Shown piece by piece: positions 18,235-25,816 of a stretch of DNA of 28,652 nt. The stretch lies in IMG/VR virus record IMGVR_UViG_3300044641_002933, positions 1 through 28,652 of that record; one strand, 5' to 3'. This stretch comes from a virus. The notes beneath the pieces were generated by a model. It was not told the origin of the DNA and did no database searches. It worked only from the letters and a program-made list of their open reading frames with translations. The position numbers and the translations under genes are program-made. Position 1 is the first letter of the stretch. Each line of letters begins with the position of its first letter.

Positions 18235-21200
18235 ATGGCAACAGCACAAGCAAATCAAAAAGTATATGTATCACCAGGGGTGTACACATCTGAAACCGAC
18301 TTATCTTTCGTAGCCCAAAGTGTGGGTGTAACGACTTTAGGTCTTGTTGGAGAAACTATCAAAGGTCCAGCATTCGAACCAGTATTCATAACTAACTACG
18401 ATGAGTTTCAAGCTTATTTCGGGGGAACTGAACCCGTTAAGTTTTATAACACTCAAATACCAAAGTATGAGGCGGCATATATTGCTAAATCATATTTACA
18501 ACAATCAAACCAATTGTTTGTTACAAGAGTTTTAGGTTTATCAGGTTACGATGCAGGTCCATCATGGTCTCTTGCAGTTACAGCAAATGTAGACCCAACA
18601 ACTATTGGTGACCCATCTACTGGAACATCATTTACTGCAACATTCACAGGGAACTCAACAGGAAATACTGTGAACTTTATTTCAGGTTCGTTACCTGCAC
18701 AGGTTATTGCAAACTTTTCAGTTCAATACAAATTACAAGATGGAAGTACATCTTCATTACAAACAGATTTTAACACCTATTTGGATGCTGTCATGGACAC
18801 ACCATCAACATCAGCAACAACCGCTGTAATATATGGTGCAATTCCTGAATCAGCATATTTTTCAGTAACTGGTCAATATTCAACAATTATAAACCCTTTT
18901 GATTGTGAAAATAATTTCGCACAAAATGATTTAACTGCAAGTAATAATGATTCTTGGTATTATGCTGACTTTAATTTCCAAAACGGAGATTCATTAACTA
19001 ACAACTACACAGGGTATTCATTCTATTACTCAGTTTCAAATTTAATCTCAGGTGCTAGTGGAGCTTTCACAGGTACTGTTGTAGGTAATTCATATACATT
19101 TACAGGTACTCCTTATACAGAGTTTAACAACATGGTGATTGCAACTCTTCGTTCAAGAGGTATTTCAAACTATGAAAACAATAGTTCAAGTATTTCCCAT
19201 GGACCCGTTTATGAAGTTGGTATTGATTACGATAATAATAACACTTGGGTACCAAACAACCTTCAATTAATTTGTACAGGACAATATTCAGAAATCACAA
19301 GTTCACCATATTCACAGTTCTTGTTATCAGGTGTAACTAAAGATAACAATACATTCACATTTGAAGCATCTATGTTAGCTTCGGATTCAAAATATATCAC
19401 TAAAGTATTAGGTGTGGATAATTTTGGAAAATCAAGATTTGAAGTCCCAATTTATGTTGAGGAAGCTTATCAGGGTTCTTTAAATTATGCCTATAATCAA
19501 GGATATATTCGTGGTTTGGCATGTGATTTAATTGCATTACCTGATGCTAGAAGTGAAAATTCATCATCTATTGCGTATAATTTAGAAAGATACCAATCAC
19601 CTGAAACACCATTTTTAGTTTCAGAATTAAGAGGTAATAAAGTTTATAAATTATTCAAGTTCATTTCAATTTCTGATGGAGATGCTGCAAATACTGAAGT
19701 TAAAGTTTCAATTGCGAATCTATCGTATAACAACATGAGTTTTGATGTTTTAGTTAGAAATTTCTTTGATACGGATGCTAATCCAGTTGTTATTGAGAAA
19801 TTTACAAACTGTAATATGGACCCAGCATCTAACAACTTCGTTGCTAAGAAAATTGGTTCGTCTAACGGTGAATTTGCTTTAATTTCAAAATACATTATGA
19901 TTGAAATGGCTGATGAGGCACCTATTGACGCATTACCTTGTGGTTTCTATGGTTATACACAAAGAGAATATTCAAGTTTTGATACATACCCTTCACCATA
20001 TCCTAAATTTAAAACAAAATACTATTATCCTGGAGAGGTTATATCTAACCCACCATTTGGTGCAAATGCGGGTGGAGCACCTGTTGAATCTGCGGGAGAC
20101 ATTGTTAGAAGAAGTTATTTAGGTTTTTCAACTCAATTTGGTATTGACGAATCTTTCTTAACATATAAAGGAAAACAGAATCCTTCAAACTGGATTTCAA
20201 ATCCTTTAGTTGAAGGTCAACCTTGGAATATTATCAGTAAAGGTTTCCACATGGACTCAGGTGCTACGGTTGTTACAATGGCTAATACTTATATGTCAAG
20301 TGGTCAAACAGCATTTGAATGTGGTGTTGCTGATTTCACCAATGACCCTCAAACTCAAGAAAATCCTTACTACTTTATATACTCAAGAAAATACACAGTA
20401 TGTTTTGCTGGTGGTTTTGATGGTTGGGATATCTACAGAGAATGGAGAACTAACCAAGACAGATTCCAATTAGGGGCTTCAGGTTACTTGGCAGGTGCAT
20501 CTGCATCTTCAAGATACCCAACAGCTACAGGTGATGGTTTATTCAAGAGAATTGTTGTTCAAAATAACACTCAAGATTTTGCAAATACTGACTACTACGC
20601 TTATTTACTTGGTATCTTAACATTTGCAAATCCTGAATCAACAAACATTAACATATTCGCAACTTCAAGTATTGATTATATCAATAACTCTAATCTTGTG
20701 GAAGAAGCAATTGACATGGTTCAATATTCAAGAGCTGACTCGGTTTATATTGCAACAACCCCTGACTACAACATGTACACTCCTGATTCAACAAACCCTC
20801 AAGATATTATCTACTCTCAAGAAGCTGTTGATAACCTTGATAACACAGGAATTGACTCTAACTATACCGCAACTTATTATCCTTGGATATTAGTTCGTGA
20901 TACAGTTAATAATACACAAATTTACTTACCACCAACTGGTGAGGTTTGTAGAAACTTAGCGTTGACTGATAACATTTCATTCCCATGGTTCGCATCAGCG
21001 GGTTACACAAGAGGTCTTGTAAACTCAATCAAAGCTAGACAAAAACTTACACAAACTGATAGAGATACATTATATCAAGGTAGAATTAACCCTATCGCAA
21101 CTTTCTCTGATGTTGGAACTGTAATTTGGGGTAACAAAACATTACAAGTTGCTGATACGGCACTTAACAGATTGAATGTAAGAAGATTATTACTTCAAGC

Positions 21201-21477
21201 TCGTAAGTTGATTTCAGCAGTTGCTGTTAGATTGTTATTTGAACAAAATGACCAAATTGTTAGACAACAATTCTTGGATAGTGTAAATCCAATCTTGGAT
21301 TCAATCAGAAGAGATAGAGGTCTTTATGATTTCCGTGTAACAGTGTCTTCAACACCTGAAGATTTAGATGCTAACAGACTAGTAGGTAAAATCTACTTAA
21401 AACCTACGAAGGCATTAGAATTCATTGATATTGAGTTCTTCATCACTCCAACAGGAGCTTCGTTTGAAAATATTTAA
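18235..21477 (+). CDS. Contractile tail sheath protein (T4 gp18-like), greatly enlarged
   Basis: A 1080-aa protein. The N-terminus (about residues 1-105) has YVSPGVYTSETDLSFV, TTLGLVGETIKGPAF and YLQQSNQLFVTRVLG, a standard sheath opening. The C-terminal 160 residues contain RGLVNSIKARQKLTQ, GRINPIATFSDVGTVIWGNKTLQ, RLNVRRLLLQARKLI and a final GKIYLKPTKALEFIDIEFFITP, the polymerisation domain shared by phage sheaths. T4 gp18 is 659 residues. Here the region between about 105 and 900 is enlarged, Ser/Thr/Asn/Gly-rich and beta-like, so it probably forms extra surface-exposed domains on the sheath. The protein packs around the tube and contracts on infection. A UUCG-loop terminator follows directly. 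Confidence 0.95.
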   Translation: MATAQANQKVYVSPGVYTSETDLSFVAQSVGVTTLGLVGETIKGPAFEPVFITNYDEFQAYFGGTEPVKFYNTQIPKYEAAYIAKSYLQQSNQLFVTRVLGLSGYDAGPSWSLAVTANVDPTTIGDPSTGTSFTATFTGNSTGNTVNFISGSLPAQVIANFSVQYKLQDGSTSSLQTDFNTYLDAVMDTPSTSATTAVIYGAIPESAYFSVTGQYSTIINPFDCENNFAQNDLTASNNDSWYYADFNFQNGDSLTNNYTGYSFYYSVSNLISGASGAFTGTVVGNSYTFTGTPYTEFNNMVIATLRSRGISNYENNSSSISHGPVYEVGIDYDNNNTWVPNNLQLICTGQYSEITSSPYSQFLLSGVTKDNNTFTFEASMLASDSKYITKVLGVDNFGKSRFEVPIYVEEAYQGSLNYAYNQGYIRGLACDLIALPDARSENSSSIAYNLERYQSPETPFLVSELRGNKVYKLFKFISISDGDAANTEVKVSIANLSYNNMSFDVLVRNFFDTDANPVVIEKFTNCNMDPASNNFVAKKIGSSNGEFALISKYIMIEMADEAPIDALPCGFYGYTQREYSSFDTYPSPYPKFKTKYYYPGEVISNPPFGANAGGAPVESAGDIVRRSYLGFSTQFGIDESFLTYKGKQNPSNWISNPLVEGQPWNIISKGFHMDSGATVVTMANTYMSSGQTAFECGVADFTNDPQTQENPYYFIYSRKYTVCFAGGFDGWDIYREWRTNQDRFQLGASGYLAGASASSRYPTATGDGLFKRIVVQNNTQDFANTDYYAYLLGILTFANPESTNINIFATSSIDYINNSNLVEEAIDMVQYSRADSVYIATTPDYNMYTPDSTNPQDIIYSQEAVDNLDNTGIDSNYTATYYPWILVRDTVNNTQIYLPPTGEVCRNLALTDNISFPWFASAGYTRGLVNSIKARQKLTQTDRDTLYQGRINPIATFSDVGTVIWGNKTLQVADTALNRLNVRRLLLQARKLISAVAVRLLFEQNDQIVRQQFLDSVNPILDSIRRDRGLYDFRVTVSSTPEDLDANRLVGKIYLKPTKALEFIDIEFFITPTGASFENI

Positions 21478-21512: not shown

Positions 21513-21521
21513 TTGCCTAAT

Positions 21522-22349
21522 ATGAGAAAACAACTTAGAGAAGGATTTAACAAGGAAGGTACTCCAGATATGAAATACTATGCCTTTGATTGGGATGACA
21601 ATATTGTTCATATGCCAACAAAAATCATGGTTAAAACGGAAGATGGTAATGAAGTTGGTATGAGTACGGATGATTTTGCGGAATATAGACATGTTTTGGG
21701 AAAAAAACCATTTCAATATAAAGGAGATACCATAGTTGGATTTGGGGAAGAACCTTTTAGAAATTTTAGAACCAAAGGTGATAAAGATTTTTTAATTGAT
21801 GTGATGAGAGCAAAAGAAGGTCCAGCATTTGGTGATTTCAGAGAAGCAATCAATAACGGGTCAATTTTTTCAATAATCACGGCTAGAGGTCACAATCCTG
21901 AAACATTAAAACAGGCGGTATATAATTATATCGTGAGTGGTTTTAATGGTATTGATAAAGACCAACTAGTTAAGAACCTTAAAAAATATAGGACATTTGT
22001 CGGTGAGGAAGAAATGAGTGACGACGATTTAATTAAATCATATTTAGAACTTAACAAATATCATCCAGTTACTTTTGGAGAAGGAGATGCTGCCAACCCT
22101 GAAGAATTAAAAGTTAGGGCAATGGAAGATTTTGTTTCTTATATAAAAGGGATGGCTGGTATACTTAATAAGAAAGCATTTATTAAAAATGACATTTCAA
22201 ATAACTTTATACCAATGGAACCTAGTATAGGATTTTCAGACGATGATATAAGAAATGTAGAAGTAATGAGTAAACATTTTAAAGATAAACCAGATAATAT
22301 AGTTAAAACTTATTCTACTGCTGGAGGCATTAAAAAGGAATATAAATAA
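21522..22349 (+). CDS. HAD-superfamily phosphohydrolase-like protein
   Basis: A 275-aa protein. I chose the ATG at 21522; a TTG at 21513 is possible but gives only three extra residues. An N-terminal LREGFNKEG stretch precedes KYYAFDWDDNIVHMPTK, where D-x-D-D is the HAD motif I nucleophile/acid pair. Motif II is IITARGHN. A late IGFSDDDIRNV gives the motif IV acidic pair. Between them is a cap-like region with AKEGPAFGDF and a helical KDQLVKNLKKYR. HAD proteins of this kind hydrolyse phosphomonoesters, for example on nucleotides, sugars or nucleic acid ends. It sits between sheath and tube genes, unusual for an enzyme, and may be packaged. Substrate unknown. Confidence 0.72.
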   Translation: MRKQLREGFNKEGTPDMKYYAFDWDDNIVHMPTKIMVKTEDGNEVGMSTDDFAEYRHVLGKKPFQYKGDTIVGFGEEPFRNFRTKGDKDFLIDVMRAKEGPAFGDFREAINNGSIFSIITARGHNPETLKQAVYNYIVSGFNGIDKDQLVKNLKKYRTFVGEEEMSDDDLIKSYLELNKYHPVTFGEGDAANPEELKVRAMEDFVSYIKGMAGILNKKAFIKNDISNNFIPMEPSIGFSDDDIRNVEVMSKHFKDKPDNIVKTYSTAGGIKKEYK

Positions 22350-22450: not shown

Positions 22451-22939
22451 ATGGCTGATTTATTAATGAAAATGCCGATACCTTATGAGCCGAAACGTCA
22501 GAACCGATTCATTTTAAGGTTTCCATCAAGTTTGGGTATAAATGAATGGTTTGTTGAGTCAACGGCTAGACCACACATCACAATTGCTGCAACGGAAATA
22601 CCATTCTTAAACACCTCAACATATGTTGCAGGTAGATTTACATGGCAAACTATCCCGGTTAAATTCCGTGACCCAATTGGACCTTCAGCAGCACAAGCTC
22701 TTATGGAGTGGGTTCGTTTACATGCTGAATCAGTTACAGGTCGTATGGGTTATGCTGCGGGTTACAAAAAAGACATTGACCTTGAAATGTTGGACCCAAC
22801 GGGTGTTGTTGTTGAGAAATGGATTCTTCAAGGTACATTCTTAACAGATGTTAACTTTGATTCATTGGCTTACAATGGAGATGCATTAGCGACAATTTCT
22901 GCAACATTACGAATGGATAGATGTGTGTTAGTTTACTAG
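22451..22939 (+). CDS. Tail tube protein (T4 gp19-like)
   Basis: A 162-aa protein, almost exactly the 163-residue length of T4 gp19. It begins MADLLMKMPIPYEPKRQNRF, with RFILRFPSSLGINEWFV and IPFLNTSTYVAGRFTWQTIPVKFRDPIGPSAAQALMEWV, and later AGYKKDIDLEMLDPTGVVVEKWIL. This is the beta-barrel tube fold with a conserved 'W..i.VtfrDpi.' strand and a 'm.W.R.h' helix. It ends TLRMDRCVLVY. The tube polymerises around the tape measure under the sheath and carries DNA into the cell. Its position after the sheath (with one intervening gene) and before the gp26-like gene keeps T4-like order. Confidence 0.92.
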   Translation: MADLLMKMPIPYEPKRQNRFILRFPSSLGINEWFVESTARPHITIAATEIPFLNTSTYVAGRFTWQTIPVKFRDPIGPSAAQALMEWVRLHAESVTGRMGYAAGYKKDIDLEMLDPTGVVVEKWILQGTFLTDVNFDSLAYNGDALATISATLRMDRCVLVY

Positions 22940-23023: not shown

Positions 23024-23767
23024 ATGGATAATCAAACAATCGACTACGGTCAACAAAATTTTACATTACCACACGATGTGGTACAATTACCTTCACAAGG
23101 TATTTTTTACAGAAATAAAAAGAAATCAATTAAAGTTGGTTATTTAACCGCTGCCGATGAAAATATTATAATGGCAGGTGGAAGTGATTTAACACTTAAT
23201 TTGTTAAGGGCGAAAATATATGAGCCGGATATGAGGATTGAAGACCTTATTGAGGGTGATGTTGAAGCTATCTTAATTTTCTTAAGAAACACAGGGTTTG
23301 GACCTGAAATAACTTTAAACCTTACTGACCCAGCAACTAAAAAAACATTCCAAACAGATGTAACATTAGACCAATTATCAATTATTAATGGTCAACAACC
23401 TAACGATGATGGTACATTTGTTATTAATTTACCAAAAACACAATCAACAATTAAACTTAAACCATTAACTTATGGTGAAATTTTGGAGATTGGTAAAATG
23501 GCTGACACATATCCTCAAGGTAGAGTTGTACCAAAAATTACTTGGAGAATGCAAAAAGAAATTATTGAGATTGATGGGTCAACTGATAAAGCGGCTATCG
23601 CAAAATTTGTTGAGTCAATGCCAATTGCTGATTCAAAATTTGTTAGAAAATTCATGAATGAAAATGAACCTAGATTGGATATGACTAAAATTATTATTGC
23701 CCCGTCAGGAGAAAAACTAACAGTAAATGTTGGTTTCGGGGTTGATTTTTTTCGTCCTTTCTTCTGA
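23024..23767 (+). CDS. gp26-like baseplate/tail-assembly protein
   Basis: A 247-aa protein. The start MDNQTIDYGQQNFTLPHDVVQLPSQGIFY is followed by KKSIKVGYLTAADENIIMAGG, the 'LPS.G.fY..........lTa.dE' pattern of the T4 baseplate gp26 family. The middle is helical (NLLRAKIYEPDMRIEDLIEGDVEAILIFL) with a beta insertion, then IKLKPLTYGEILEIGKMADT. The last third is helix-rich. It ends VNVGFGVDFFRPFF just after a T7 run, where a +1 frame continues as a short open frame. In other phages the pair of genes between tube and tape measure makes chaperones by frameshift, so this may be the upstream (G-like) half. The T4 baseplate role of gp26 is an alternative. Confidence 0.65.
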   Translation: MDNQTIDYGQQNFTLPHDVVQLPSQGIFYRNKKKSIKVGYLTAADENIIMAGGSDLTLNLLRAKIYEPDMRIEDLIEGDVEAILIFLRNTGFGPEITLNLTDPATKKTFQTDVTLDQLSIINGQQPNDDGTFVINLPKTQSTIKLKPLTYGEILEIGKMADTYPQGRVVPKITWRMQKEIIEIDGSTDKAAIAKFVESMPIADSKFVRKFMNENEPRLDMTKIIIAPSGEKLTVNVGFGVDFFRPFF

Positions 23768-23906
23768 TTATAGGAAAAATCAGATAGACGAATTTTACTA
23801 TCTGAACAATTTAATGAAAATAACATATCAAGATTTTATTCAAATGCCAATATTTGTGAGAAAATATTTGTTGGATAAATGGATTGAAGAAAATAGGAAG
23901 GACTAA
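23727..23906 (+). CDS. +1-frame extension after the gp26-like gene (possible frameshift T-domain)
   Basis: The +1 frame is open from the ATG at 23727 to a TAA at 23904-23906. Its opening overlaps the end of the gp26-like gene. From 23754 it reads VLSSDYRKNQIDEFYYLNN, then KITYQDFIQMPIFVRKYL and DKWIEENRKD, a short helical, charged domain. A T7 run (23746-23752) lies exactly where ribosomes would have to leave frame, and the zero frame ends 15 bases later. The shift needed is +1 or -2. An ATG at 23814 could instead start a separate 30-residue protein. Its place between tube and tape-measure genes matches tail-assembly chaperone T extensions. Confidence 0.5.
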   Translation: MLVSGLIFFVLSSDYRKNQIDEFYYLNNLMKITYQDFIQMPIFVRKYLLDKWIEENRKD

Positions 23907-23950: not shown

Positions 23951-25816
23951 ATGGCGACTAATAATAGAGACGATGTAGGTAGGATTGAAGACCTTGAGAA
24001 AAGTTTTGAAAAATTGGGTAAACCAATTGACCAAATTTTAGATGCTATTGGTAGCATGTATAGTGAGGCGAACAAATTAAATAATGCTTTCTTACAAAGT
24101 AGGACCAGATTAGATGAAATGAATGACGCGGTGGCAAAGGCGGCTGCTGGTGTTATTCGTTTGGGTGGGAATATTAATGATGTTGGTGATACTATGATTG
24201 GCATTGCTGATGGTGCAAGAAGAAATGTTATTGCAACTGAAGACCAAGTTAGTAAATTATACGCCGCAACAACAATTTTAGGTGGCAGTACTAAAGATTT
24301 AGTTGAAAATTTTGATAATGTTGGTATTTCAGTATCTCAGATAGGTACAAACTTAGAAAGTTCTATTGAATATATTCAAAGTGTTGGTTTAAATGCCAAA
24401 ACCGTAATGGGTGATGTCACCAACAATATGGAACAGATGAATCGTTTCCAATTTGATAATGGGGTTCAAGGGTTAGCTAAAATGGCAGCACAATCGTCAA
24501 TGTTAAAATTTGACATGAAACAAACTTTTGCGTTTGCAGATAGAGTTCTTGACCCTGAAGGTGCTATTAATATGGCTGCGGCGTTTCAAAGGTTAGGGGT
24601 ATCTGTTGGTAATTTAACTGACCCTTTTGCTTTAATGAATGAGTCAATAAATGACCCGACAGGATTACAAAACAGTTTAGCTAGAGTTGGTGAAAAATAT
24701 ACAGTTTTTGATGAAAAAACTAAAACTTTTAAAATTAATCCACAAGGTGTTTTAATTTTAAGAGAAATGGAAAAAGAGGCTCAATTGGTTAGTGGAACAT
24801 TAAGTAAATCTGCTTTAGCCGCGGCTGATTTAGATAGGAGAGTTTCTAACATTAATCCGTCTCTAAAGTTTGATAGTGAAGAAGACAAACAATTCTTAGC
24901 CAATATGGCTACTATGAATAAAGAAGGTGAGTATACCGTTCAATTAAAAAATGATAAGACAGGGGAAGTTGAAACCAAAAGATTAGGTGATATTACCCAA
25001 GAAGAGATGGAGAAATTAAGGGAACAACAGGAAAGGGCTCCAAAAACTTTAGAAGAAATACAAATAAATCAGTTAGATGTATTAAAAAATATTGAAAGTG
25101 CTATTTCAGGTAATGTTGCAAAGGCAACCTATGGAATTGCAGGCGCTTCTGTGATTAGAGGTAATATTTTAGGTGCGGATAGAATTACAAGAGCTGTTAC
25201 AGGTGCTGTAGATAAAAATGTACCTGAGAGTACTGAAATAACAAAAAGTATTAATACTGCTGTTGGTAAAATGTCGGAACTTTTTACGAAAAAAGATACA
25301 GGTAAAATAAGTGATGCTGATTTTGCAATTAAAATTGCAAAACTTGAAGATGAAATTAAAAATAAAGCGTCTGAATATGGTAGTAAAGGTATTGATGCTT
25401 TAAAAAATATATTAGAGGAAACTAATAAAAACATAACAGGAAGTAGTGGTCTTGAAAAAGAATTTAAAAAATATACAACAGAAATGTTGACGGGTAAAAA
25501 AGAACTTACTCCAACAAATACTAAAACAGGAGTAATATCTGGAACTCAAACAAAACCTTTGACAAGAGAACAAATATTAGGTATAGGTGGTACCACAAAA
25601 AAATATGACAAAACATTCTCACAACAAAAACAAGTGAATTCACAAGTAGATTTTGGTGGTACGATAACTGTTAAAGTAGACGCCCCTCCAGGTGTTGCAT
25701 TAAACCAAAAACAATTAAATGATGTGTTTAACAGTCAAGAGTTTAAACAATATATTGTAAAGGTAAGCAAATCAAATACAGAAGGTAAAAATCAAGGTGT
25801 TGTTAGTTATGGTTAA
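23951..25816 (+). CDS. Probable tape-measure protein (T4 gp29-like)
   Basis: A 621-aa protein, near the 590 residues of T4 gp29. It is helix-rich and Ala/Gly/Asn-rich, with long amphipathic segments from the start (RIEDLEKSFEKLGKPIDQIL) and mildly hydrophobic stretches (AKATYGIAGASVIRGNILGA). The body has repeated 'A..L.....G' helices typical of tape measures. Residues about 330-370 are charged (EDKQFLANMATMNKEGEYTV; EEMEKLREQQER). The end is Gly/Thr-rich and then PGVALNQKQLNDVFNSQEF. Its length, placement after tube and gp26-like genes, and fold composition fit a tape measure that sets tail length. No catalytic motif is visible. Confidence 0.75.
   Translation: MATNNRDDVGRIEDLEKSFEKLGKPIDQILDAIGSMYSEANKLNNAFLQSRTRLDEMNDAVAKAAAGVIRLGGNINDVGDTMIGIADGARRNVIATEDQVSKLYAATTILGGSTKDLVENFDNVGISVSQIGTNLESSIEYIQSVGLNAKTVMGDVTNNMEQMNRFQFDNGVQGLAKMAAQSSMLKFDMKQTFAFADRVLDPEGAINMAAAFQRLGVSVGNLTDPFALMNESINDPTGLQNSLARVGEKYTVFDEKTKTFKINPQGVLILREMEKEAQLVSGTLSKSALAAADLDRRVSNINPSLKFDSEEDKQFLANMATMNKEGEYTVQLKNDKTGEVETKRLGDITQEEMEKLREQQERAPKTLEEIQINQLDVLKNIESAISGNVAKATYGIAGASVIRGNILGADRITRAVTGAVDKNVPESTEITKSINTAVGKMSELFTKKDTGKISDADFAIKIAKLEDEIKNKASEYGSKGIDALKNILEETNKNITGSSGLEKEFKKYTTEMLTGKKELTPTNTKTGVISGTQTKPLTREQILGIGGTTKKYDKTFSQQKQVNSQVDFGGTITVKVDAPPGVALNQKQLNDVFNSQEFKQYIVKVSKSNTEGKNQGVVSYG

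Follow-up and report, generated by a model that had tools for sequence, protein, structure and literature searches.

A probable +1 frameshift at a conserved UUU_C site extends a gp26-type tail assembly chaperone

Results

Gene layout of the tail locus

The window is the whole 28,652-nucleotide stretch analysed here (positions 1 to 28,652 of IMG/VR virus record IMGVR_UViG_3300044641_002933). The genes of interest within it are as follows.

22451..22939, + strand: tail tube protein (gp19-like), 5′ of the chaperone gene (PHROG4542 E=6e-25, PF06841 E=1.8e-4)
23024..23767, + strand: ORF1, 247 aa, predicted to be the short form of the chaperone (TAC-N; equivalent to gp26 and lambda gpG) (PF12322, PHROG150, AF2 model)
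23754..23906, + strand: ORF2, the +1-frame extension, a putative C-terminal T-like domain of the gp51 type, 50 codons plus TAA (pN/pS, three-helix AF2 model, profile links)
23951..25816, + strand: tape-measure-like ORF, whose product the chaperone would be expected to bind (position)

A profile search with 23951..25816 gave no match and the ORF was named from its position; the gene 3′ of the chaperone is annotated as tape measure in immuto, SP-15 and LIS04. The earlier note had placed the chaperone gene between tube and tape measure, which agrees with the profile evidence for the former and the position of the latter. Upstream of the tube, a tail sheath gene (18235-21477, 1080 aa) matches sheath profiles in its last third only, the remainder being a large N-terminal addition. 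Between sheath and tube is a 278-aa ORF (21513-22349) with an aspartate-rich YAFDWDDNI motif, which is possibly HAD-like; its profile search returned no match. No tRNA genes were found in the window.

ORF1 belongs to the gp26 family, as the earlier note had suggested, matching PF12322 (E=1.3e-5, 25.4 bits, curated cut-off 24.5) and PHROG150 (E=3e-10, 41.0 bits). ORF1 and the extension were modelled separately in AF2, never as a fused protein. The best PDB matches to the ORF1 model (pLDDT 85) were 2ob9 (HK97 TAC, gp14) and 3klu (YqbN, which we take to be a tail assembly chaperone of the same kind), with Z scores of 5.7 and 5.6 and the next match at 3.0. The Foldseek match to the HK97 chaperone was weak (E 0.93). 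The modelled fold resembles these two chaperones best, but weakly. A PDB sequence search for relatives found none, the one match being due to chance (E 0.14).

The 3′ end of ORF1 reads GAT TTT TTT CGT CCT TTC TTC TGA. The T7 run occupies 23746-23752 and the TGA (23765-23767) ends 15 bases beyond it. The +1/−2 frame is open from 23727 to a TAA at 23904-23906, with 50 codons past the T run (23754-23903), and these coordinates match the description in the earlier note.

The slip site and the second frame are conserved

The features around the junction are listed below.

23750..23753, + strand: candidate slip site UUU_C, made up of TTT (codon 243) and the initial C of CGT, with +1 re-pairing from UUU to UUC (TTT TTT C in 59/59 sequences)
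23753..23755, + strand: A-site codon CGT, seldom used elsewhere in the gene group (CGT/CGC ~1% of Arg codons in the group)
23727..23729, + strand: conserved ATG in the ORF2 frame, probably not a functional start (residues from ATG to slip site vary freely)

Relatives were collected from IMG/VR in two scans, the first of which kept 80 loci and the second 80 more, many in common, and 59 distinct sequences were compared. The 247-aa ORF1 and the open +1 frame were present in all fetched relatives whose contig reaches far enough (the L044 contig ends just beyond the ORF1 stop). The earlier note had proposed looking in related phages for both the T run and the downstream frame. The downstream frame is kept, but the T7 run is found only in the window and L001, both with GAT as the preceding codon, while the group keeps TTTTTT C. 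From this alignment, the conserved element is UUU followed by C and the T7 run is incidental.

Codons F242, F243, P245, F246 and F247 are free of synonymous change across the 59 sequences, compared with 2-6 changes each on the tree for eight of the nine other invariant Phe columns. The codon following TTT TTT is CGT, CGC or, in nine sequences, CTC, which replaces Arg with Leu and retains the C. As this base lies in no ORF2 codon under a +1 shift, the best explanation for its retention is that it completes UUC when the tRNA re-pairs. Over the long ORFs of the window, CGT and CGC make up 16% of Arg codons, compared with ~1% in the gene group, and they can therefore be called rare for the gene but not for the genome.

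Past the ORF1 stop, pN/pS in the window group is 0.14 in the +1 frame, against 2.49 and 1.36 in the two other frames. The +1-frame extension gives 0.17-0.19 and is low in this frame alone. The seven codons between the ATG at 23727 and the slip site are unconstrained in the ORF2 frame (pN 0.139, pS 0.027) and constrained in the ORF1 frame. Judged by these substitution patterns, constraint on the ORF2 frame begins at the slip site and not at the upstream ATG. Since the arrangement is kept in the IMG/VR relatives, and purifying selection after the stop acts in the +1 frame only, it is not due to chance. No −1 frame of the X XXY YYZ class stays open: across the window group it closes at +20 or +38, and in the window itself 20 bases past the ORF1 stop.

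The AF2 model of the extension consists of three helices, in keeping with the small helical second domain proposed previously. Fusing the extension to ORF1 in the +1 frame raised the PHROG150 score to 46.9 bits, from 41.0 for ORF1 alone, the alignment crossing the junction to residue 265 (profile position 252). A direct hhalign comparison of the window T domain with T4 gp51 was not significant (E 0.28). However, a chain of profiles connects them (window-lr508 1e-4, lr508-cyanophage 7e-5, cyanophage-T4 4e-4), making the link to T4 gp51 an indirect one by way of intermediate groups.

A candidate hairpin lies just upstream of the slip site

A predicted two-part hairpin, a feature absent from the earlier note, ends shortly before the slip site.

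23699..23704, + strand: outer stem 5′ arm, GCCCCG (paired third codon positions conserved; pairs kept in 98.9% of cells; codon-shuffle z ~−2.9)
23717..23722, + strand: inner stem 5′ arm, CUAACA, with loop GUNAA (100% of cells paired)
23728..23733, + strand: inner stem 3′ arm, UGUUGG (third-position conservation, pairing)
23737..23742, + strand: outer stem 3′ arm, CGGGGU, ending 7 nt before the slip codon (Gly239 codon invariant)

In the consensus for the window group, the outer stem joins G/A-CCCC-G to GGGG-Y and the inner stem joins CTAACA to TGTTGG, closing a GTNAA loop. Paired third codon positions are invariant, whereas those in the loop or between the stems vary freely. Gly239 is GGG in 59/59 sequences, although GGG accounts for only ~5% of Gly codons in the gene. 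The last two bases of the ATG at 23727 sit within the inner stem. Codon-preserving shuffles gave z ~−2.9 for a 57-nt stretch at the hairpin of the window group. In each of four +1 groups, eleven stretches along the gene were compared and the one ending at the slip site scored lowest (z −3.0, −1.2, −1.8 and −2.0), whereas the corresponding stretch in the cyanophage −1 group gave +0.4, with no upstream hairpin signal.

Pairs in the window-group hairpin hold in 99.5% of cells. All changes are one-sided, with no compensatory double changes, and shuffles reach the same pairing values; covariation therefore speaks neither for nor against this hairpin. Only one pair varies freely in the immuto group; it was kept in 39 of 51 cases compared with 32.5 in shuffles (P 0.0035, uncorrected for relatedness).

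Downstream of the slip site, no consensus fold that might act as a stimulator was obtained for the window group (alifold −1.4). A CAGATAG/CTATCTG stem (23780-23807), ~30 nt 3′ of the slip site, is largely kept; it was rejected as a candidate, being constrained coding sequence far from the slip site.

Direction of the second frame across the gp26 family

A T-type frame in +1 was also found in immuto and its kin (L174-L253), LR756508-related loci (L254-L271), the BRock group (L274-L288), SP-15, LIS04, GXN1 and Psa3. SP-15, used as a search seed in IMG/VR, returned only itself. The junction reads UUU then C in SP-15, GXN1, BRock, immuto, Psa3 and LR756508. Some +1 loci have UUU then U, in TTT TGG, and LIS04 has UUU_A (UUU_UUU_A). 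The predicted frame alone combined low pN/pS with the lack of a stop, both in four +1 groups (0.19, 0.41, 0.45 and 0.19) and in the cyanophage −1 group (0.22). Many +1 loci lack a start codon before the constrained part begins: 8 of 58 immuto-type loci have none before +21, and an ATG is missing from most BRock-type loci. In the Pseudomonas phage QdP_Psa3, an extra 240-aa hypothetical gene (L091, 2220-2942) lies between the tube and the gp26-like gene.

In cyanophages (L093-L172), the T-type frame lies in −1 behind an invariant T TTT TTC (U UUU UUC). An SD-like AGGG precedes the −1 heptamer by ~10 nt in 78/78 cyanophage gp26 sequences, 0.36 per sequence being expected from codon usage, and is maintained through the alternatives GAG GGN and GAA GGG. 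The −1 frame with T TTT TTC is shared by the Straboviridae LPCS28, P19 and R10Z and by phage ACP17. In two cyanophage-type ‘gp51’ frames (L143 and L136), the stretch from the heptamer to the conserved domain is devoid of ATG, and therefore the annotated small gene could not begin there with ATG; L143 also lacks GTG and TTG. Two loci of the Ackermannviridae type, L294 (Cba120) and L296 (D507), have a T-like ORF in the −1 frame and no T TTT TTC heptamer at the junction.

In a tree of 42 gp26-type proteins, a strongly supported branch (99/97) puts the −1, T4-paralogue and Ackermannviridae rows on one side and the +1 rows on the other. Deep joins are uncertain owing to several long branches. This split was likewise absent from the earlier note. 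That note held that a separate second gene with no slippery run would refute frameshifting. Such an arrangement does occur, but only in L264, L269 and LR756511 (L088), where an apparently independent gene, started on its own shortly after gp26, encodes the T-type domain, and all three nest inside the +1 side of the tree.

Discussion

Comparison with known systems

T4 gp51 (249 aa) consists of a gp26-like domain (aa 1-201, PF12322 E=4e-52) and a tail matching PHROG634. T4 gp26 lacks this tail, and cyanophage gp51 is the tail alone, out of frame behind gp26. T4 gp51 is thus a gp26 copy carrying a T-type tail, the same architecture in the same family as the fusion predicted here. However, T4 uses two separate paralogous genes, in contrast to one gene with a +1 shift in the window. 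In cyanophages with gp26 and a small gp51 (S-SM2, S-PM2), and in LPCS28, P19 and R10Z, a T-type domain also lies directly 3′ of gp26 and out of frame. These differ from the window in using the −1 frame, and the cyanophages moreover have the invariant U UUU UUC, the upstream AGGG and no upstream hairpin signal. Lambda G/GT and HK97 gp14 share the position between tube and tape measure, the short and extended forms and, for HK97 gp14, the weak fold match; they show no sequence similarity to the window protein, which is larger, and the lambda shift is −1. Shifts of −1, −2 or +1 are already known for this chaperone in tailed phages (PMC5009743).

Outside phages, a parallel is found in influenza A PA-X (UCC_UUU_CGU), in which the P-site slip is likewise from UUU to UUC at UUU_CGU, with a seldom-used CGU in the A site. 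The PA-X shift was shown to be +1 by peptide sequencing, and its authors predicted a UUU_C class of +1 sites (PMC3498833). PA-X is an unrelated gene read by eukaryotic ribosomes, the likeness being convergent, and the passages covered note no upstream hairpin for it. In prfB (RF2) and in engineered upstream hairpins, +1 shifting is favoured by a duplex lying shortly behind the P site. prfB differs in relying on SD:anti-SD pairing and a stop codon, in place of a cis hairpin and a sense codon. Hairpins that refold upstream have been reported to promote +1 shifting by 70S ribosomes and to reduce −1 shifting (PMC6321510), and the presence of hairpins in the +1 groups and their absence from the −1 group fit these effects.

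A +1 frameshift model and its alternatives

As the best explanation, the window very probably encodes a gp26-type tail assembly chaperone whose long form arises through a +1 shift at UUU_C. Comparison of the sequences indicates that both frames are under selection, the junction lies at UUU_C, the site is invariant and T4 gp51 is fused. This supports the proposal in the earlier note of a frameshift-made chaperone. We infer the +1 direction, a role for the hairpin, client binding and any efficiency. Most ribosomes would terminate at 23765 and release the 247-aa short form (TAC-N, gp26). In some, peptidyl-tRNA-Phe would rest on UUU (23750-23752) while the A site holds CGU, a slowly decoded codon; the tRNA would then slip one base forward to re-pair with UUC, and translation would continue to 23903. 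The product would be a 293-aa long form (TAC-NC) ending in the three-helix T-like domain. The hairpin (23699-23742) probably favours forward movement of the ribosome by refolding behind it. If lambda G/GT is a guide, the short form may coat the tape measure and the long form recruit tube subunits.

The earlier note left the shift as either −2 slippage on the T run or +1 slippage. Reading frame alone cannot separate the products of the two. A −2 slip would give the same fusion and is permitted by cognate re-pairing on the T6 or T7 of the window group; phage Mu uses one (PMC5009743), and the UUU_UUU_A of LIS04 suits −2 better. However, −2 re-pairing is cognate only with a T run and is mismatched in GXN1, BRock, Psa3, LR756508 and close immuto relatives, whereas with a +1 slip the tRNA re-pairs with cognate bases, on UUU_C or UUU_U, in all +1 groups but LIS04. 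Moreover, mass spectrometry of PA-X places its UUU_CGU shift at +1, with no −2 peptide (PMC3498833), and we consider a −2 shift improbable. The predicted junction peptide is LTVNVGFGVDFFVLSSDYR for +1 and LTVNVGFGVDFFFVLSSDYR for −2, the +1 product being one residue shorter. For immuto 2-6A, it would be FFPEDGPDGGVDIPIGVSFFGLTPEYR if the slip is on UUU_C and ...GVSFLGLTPEYR if on CUU_U. Slippage by RNA polymerase, or an assembly indel, could join the frames at the homopolymer of the window junction. Yet the run is no longer than T6 in most of the group and is reduced to TTTC in several +1 groups, and many independent metagenomes and isolated phages show the same relation between the frames. 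The loci lacking a homopolymer refute this as a general cause, and it is very unlikely.

The remaining alternatives dispense with fusion. ORF2 could be an independent overlapping gene of 59 aa starting at the ATG at 23727 and producing a free gp51-like T protein. This ATG is conserved in all sequences, the AAT and GTT codons around it lack synonymous change in 59 sequences, separate T genes exist in L264, L269 and LR756511, and the window group begins genes without clear Shine-Dalgarno sites. However, conservation of the ATG is explained by its place within the paired hairpin stretch. The seven codons that follow it are unconstrained in the ORF2 frame, the invariant UUU_C would be left unexplained, other +1 groups (immuto, BRock-type) often lack an upstream start and T4 gp51 exists in fused form, all of which make an independent gene a poor prospect. 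Translation only from an internal Met at +49 (30 aa) is less plausible still and was rejected: the Met is present in most sequences, but it is lost in L349 and L361, and the 15 preceding codons are equally constrained (pN/pS 0.14).

Implications for the gp26 family

A probable +1 frameshift of this kind, with a hairpin just before the slip, recurs across a large branch of the gp26 family, where it seems to have gone unannotated. In the literature covered, which represents Vladimirov et al. (2022) through citing papers, neither a +1 shift in the gp26 family nor a naturally occurring upstream hairpin at a site of this type was described, and the +1 branch and the hairpin seem to be new. The earlier note had anticipated that a chaperone role would change how gp26 is viewed. 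Family membership holds, but for T4-like phages that change came in 2022, when, according to the citing passages in PMC12846349 and PMC10885494, gp26 and gp51 were identified as the T4 chaperones by Vladimirov, Gautam and Davidson. A broader scheme has about an even chance of being correct. In it, the whole +1 side, which takes in huge phages as well as phages of Flavobacterium, Firmicutes and Streptomyces, would make its chaperone by UUU_Y +1 slippage driven by a hairpin refolding behind the ribosome, the natural counterpart of hairpins tested to date as engineered elements. The sister side would shift −1 with an SD-like stimulator, and direction would have switched once in the family.

These data provide a shift site, a direction and a candidate stimulator for the tail chaperone of widespread contractile-tailed phages, in which the second half has been missed or annotated as a tiny hypothetical gene. 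They may also explain the short gp51 of cyanophages, which lacks about the first 200 residues (Sullivan 2010, PMC3037559), in that the missing residues would be gp26 itself, joined by the shift. If the upstream hairpin acts as proposed, this would be a natural case of forward frameshifting pushed from behind, in a family where the direction of the shift and the type of stimulator change together.
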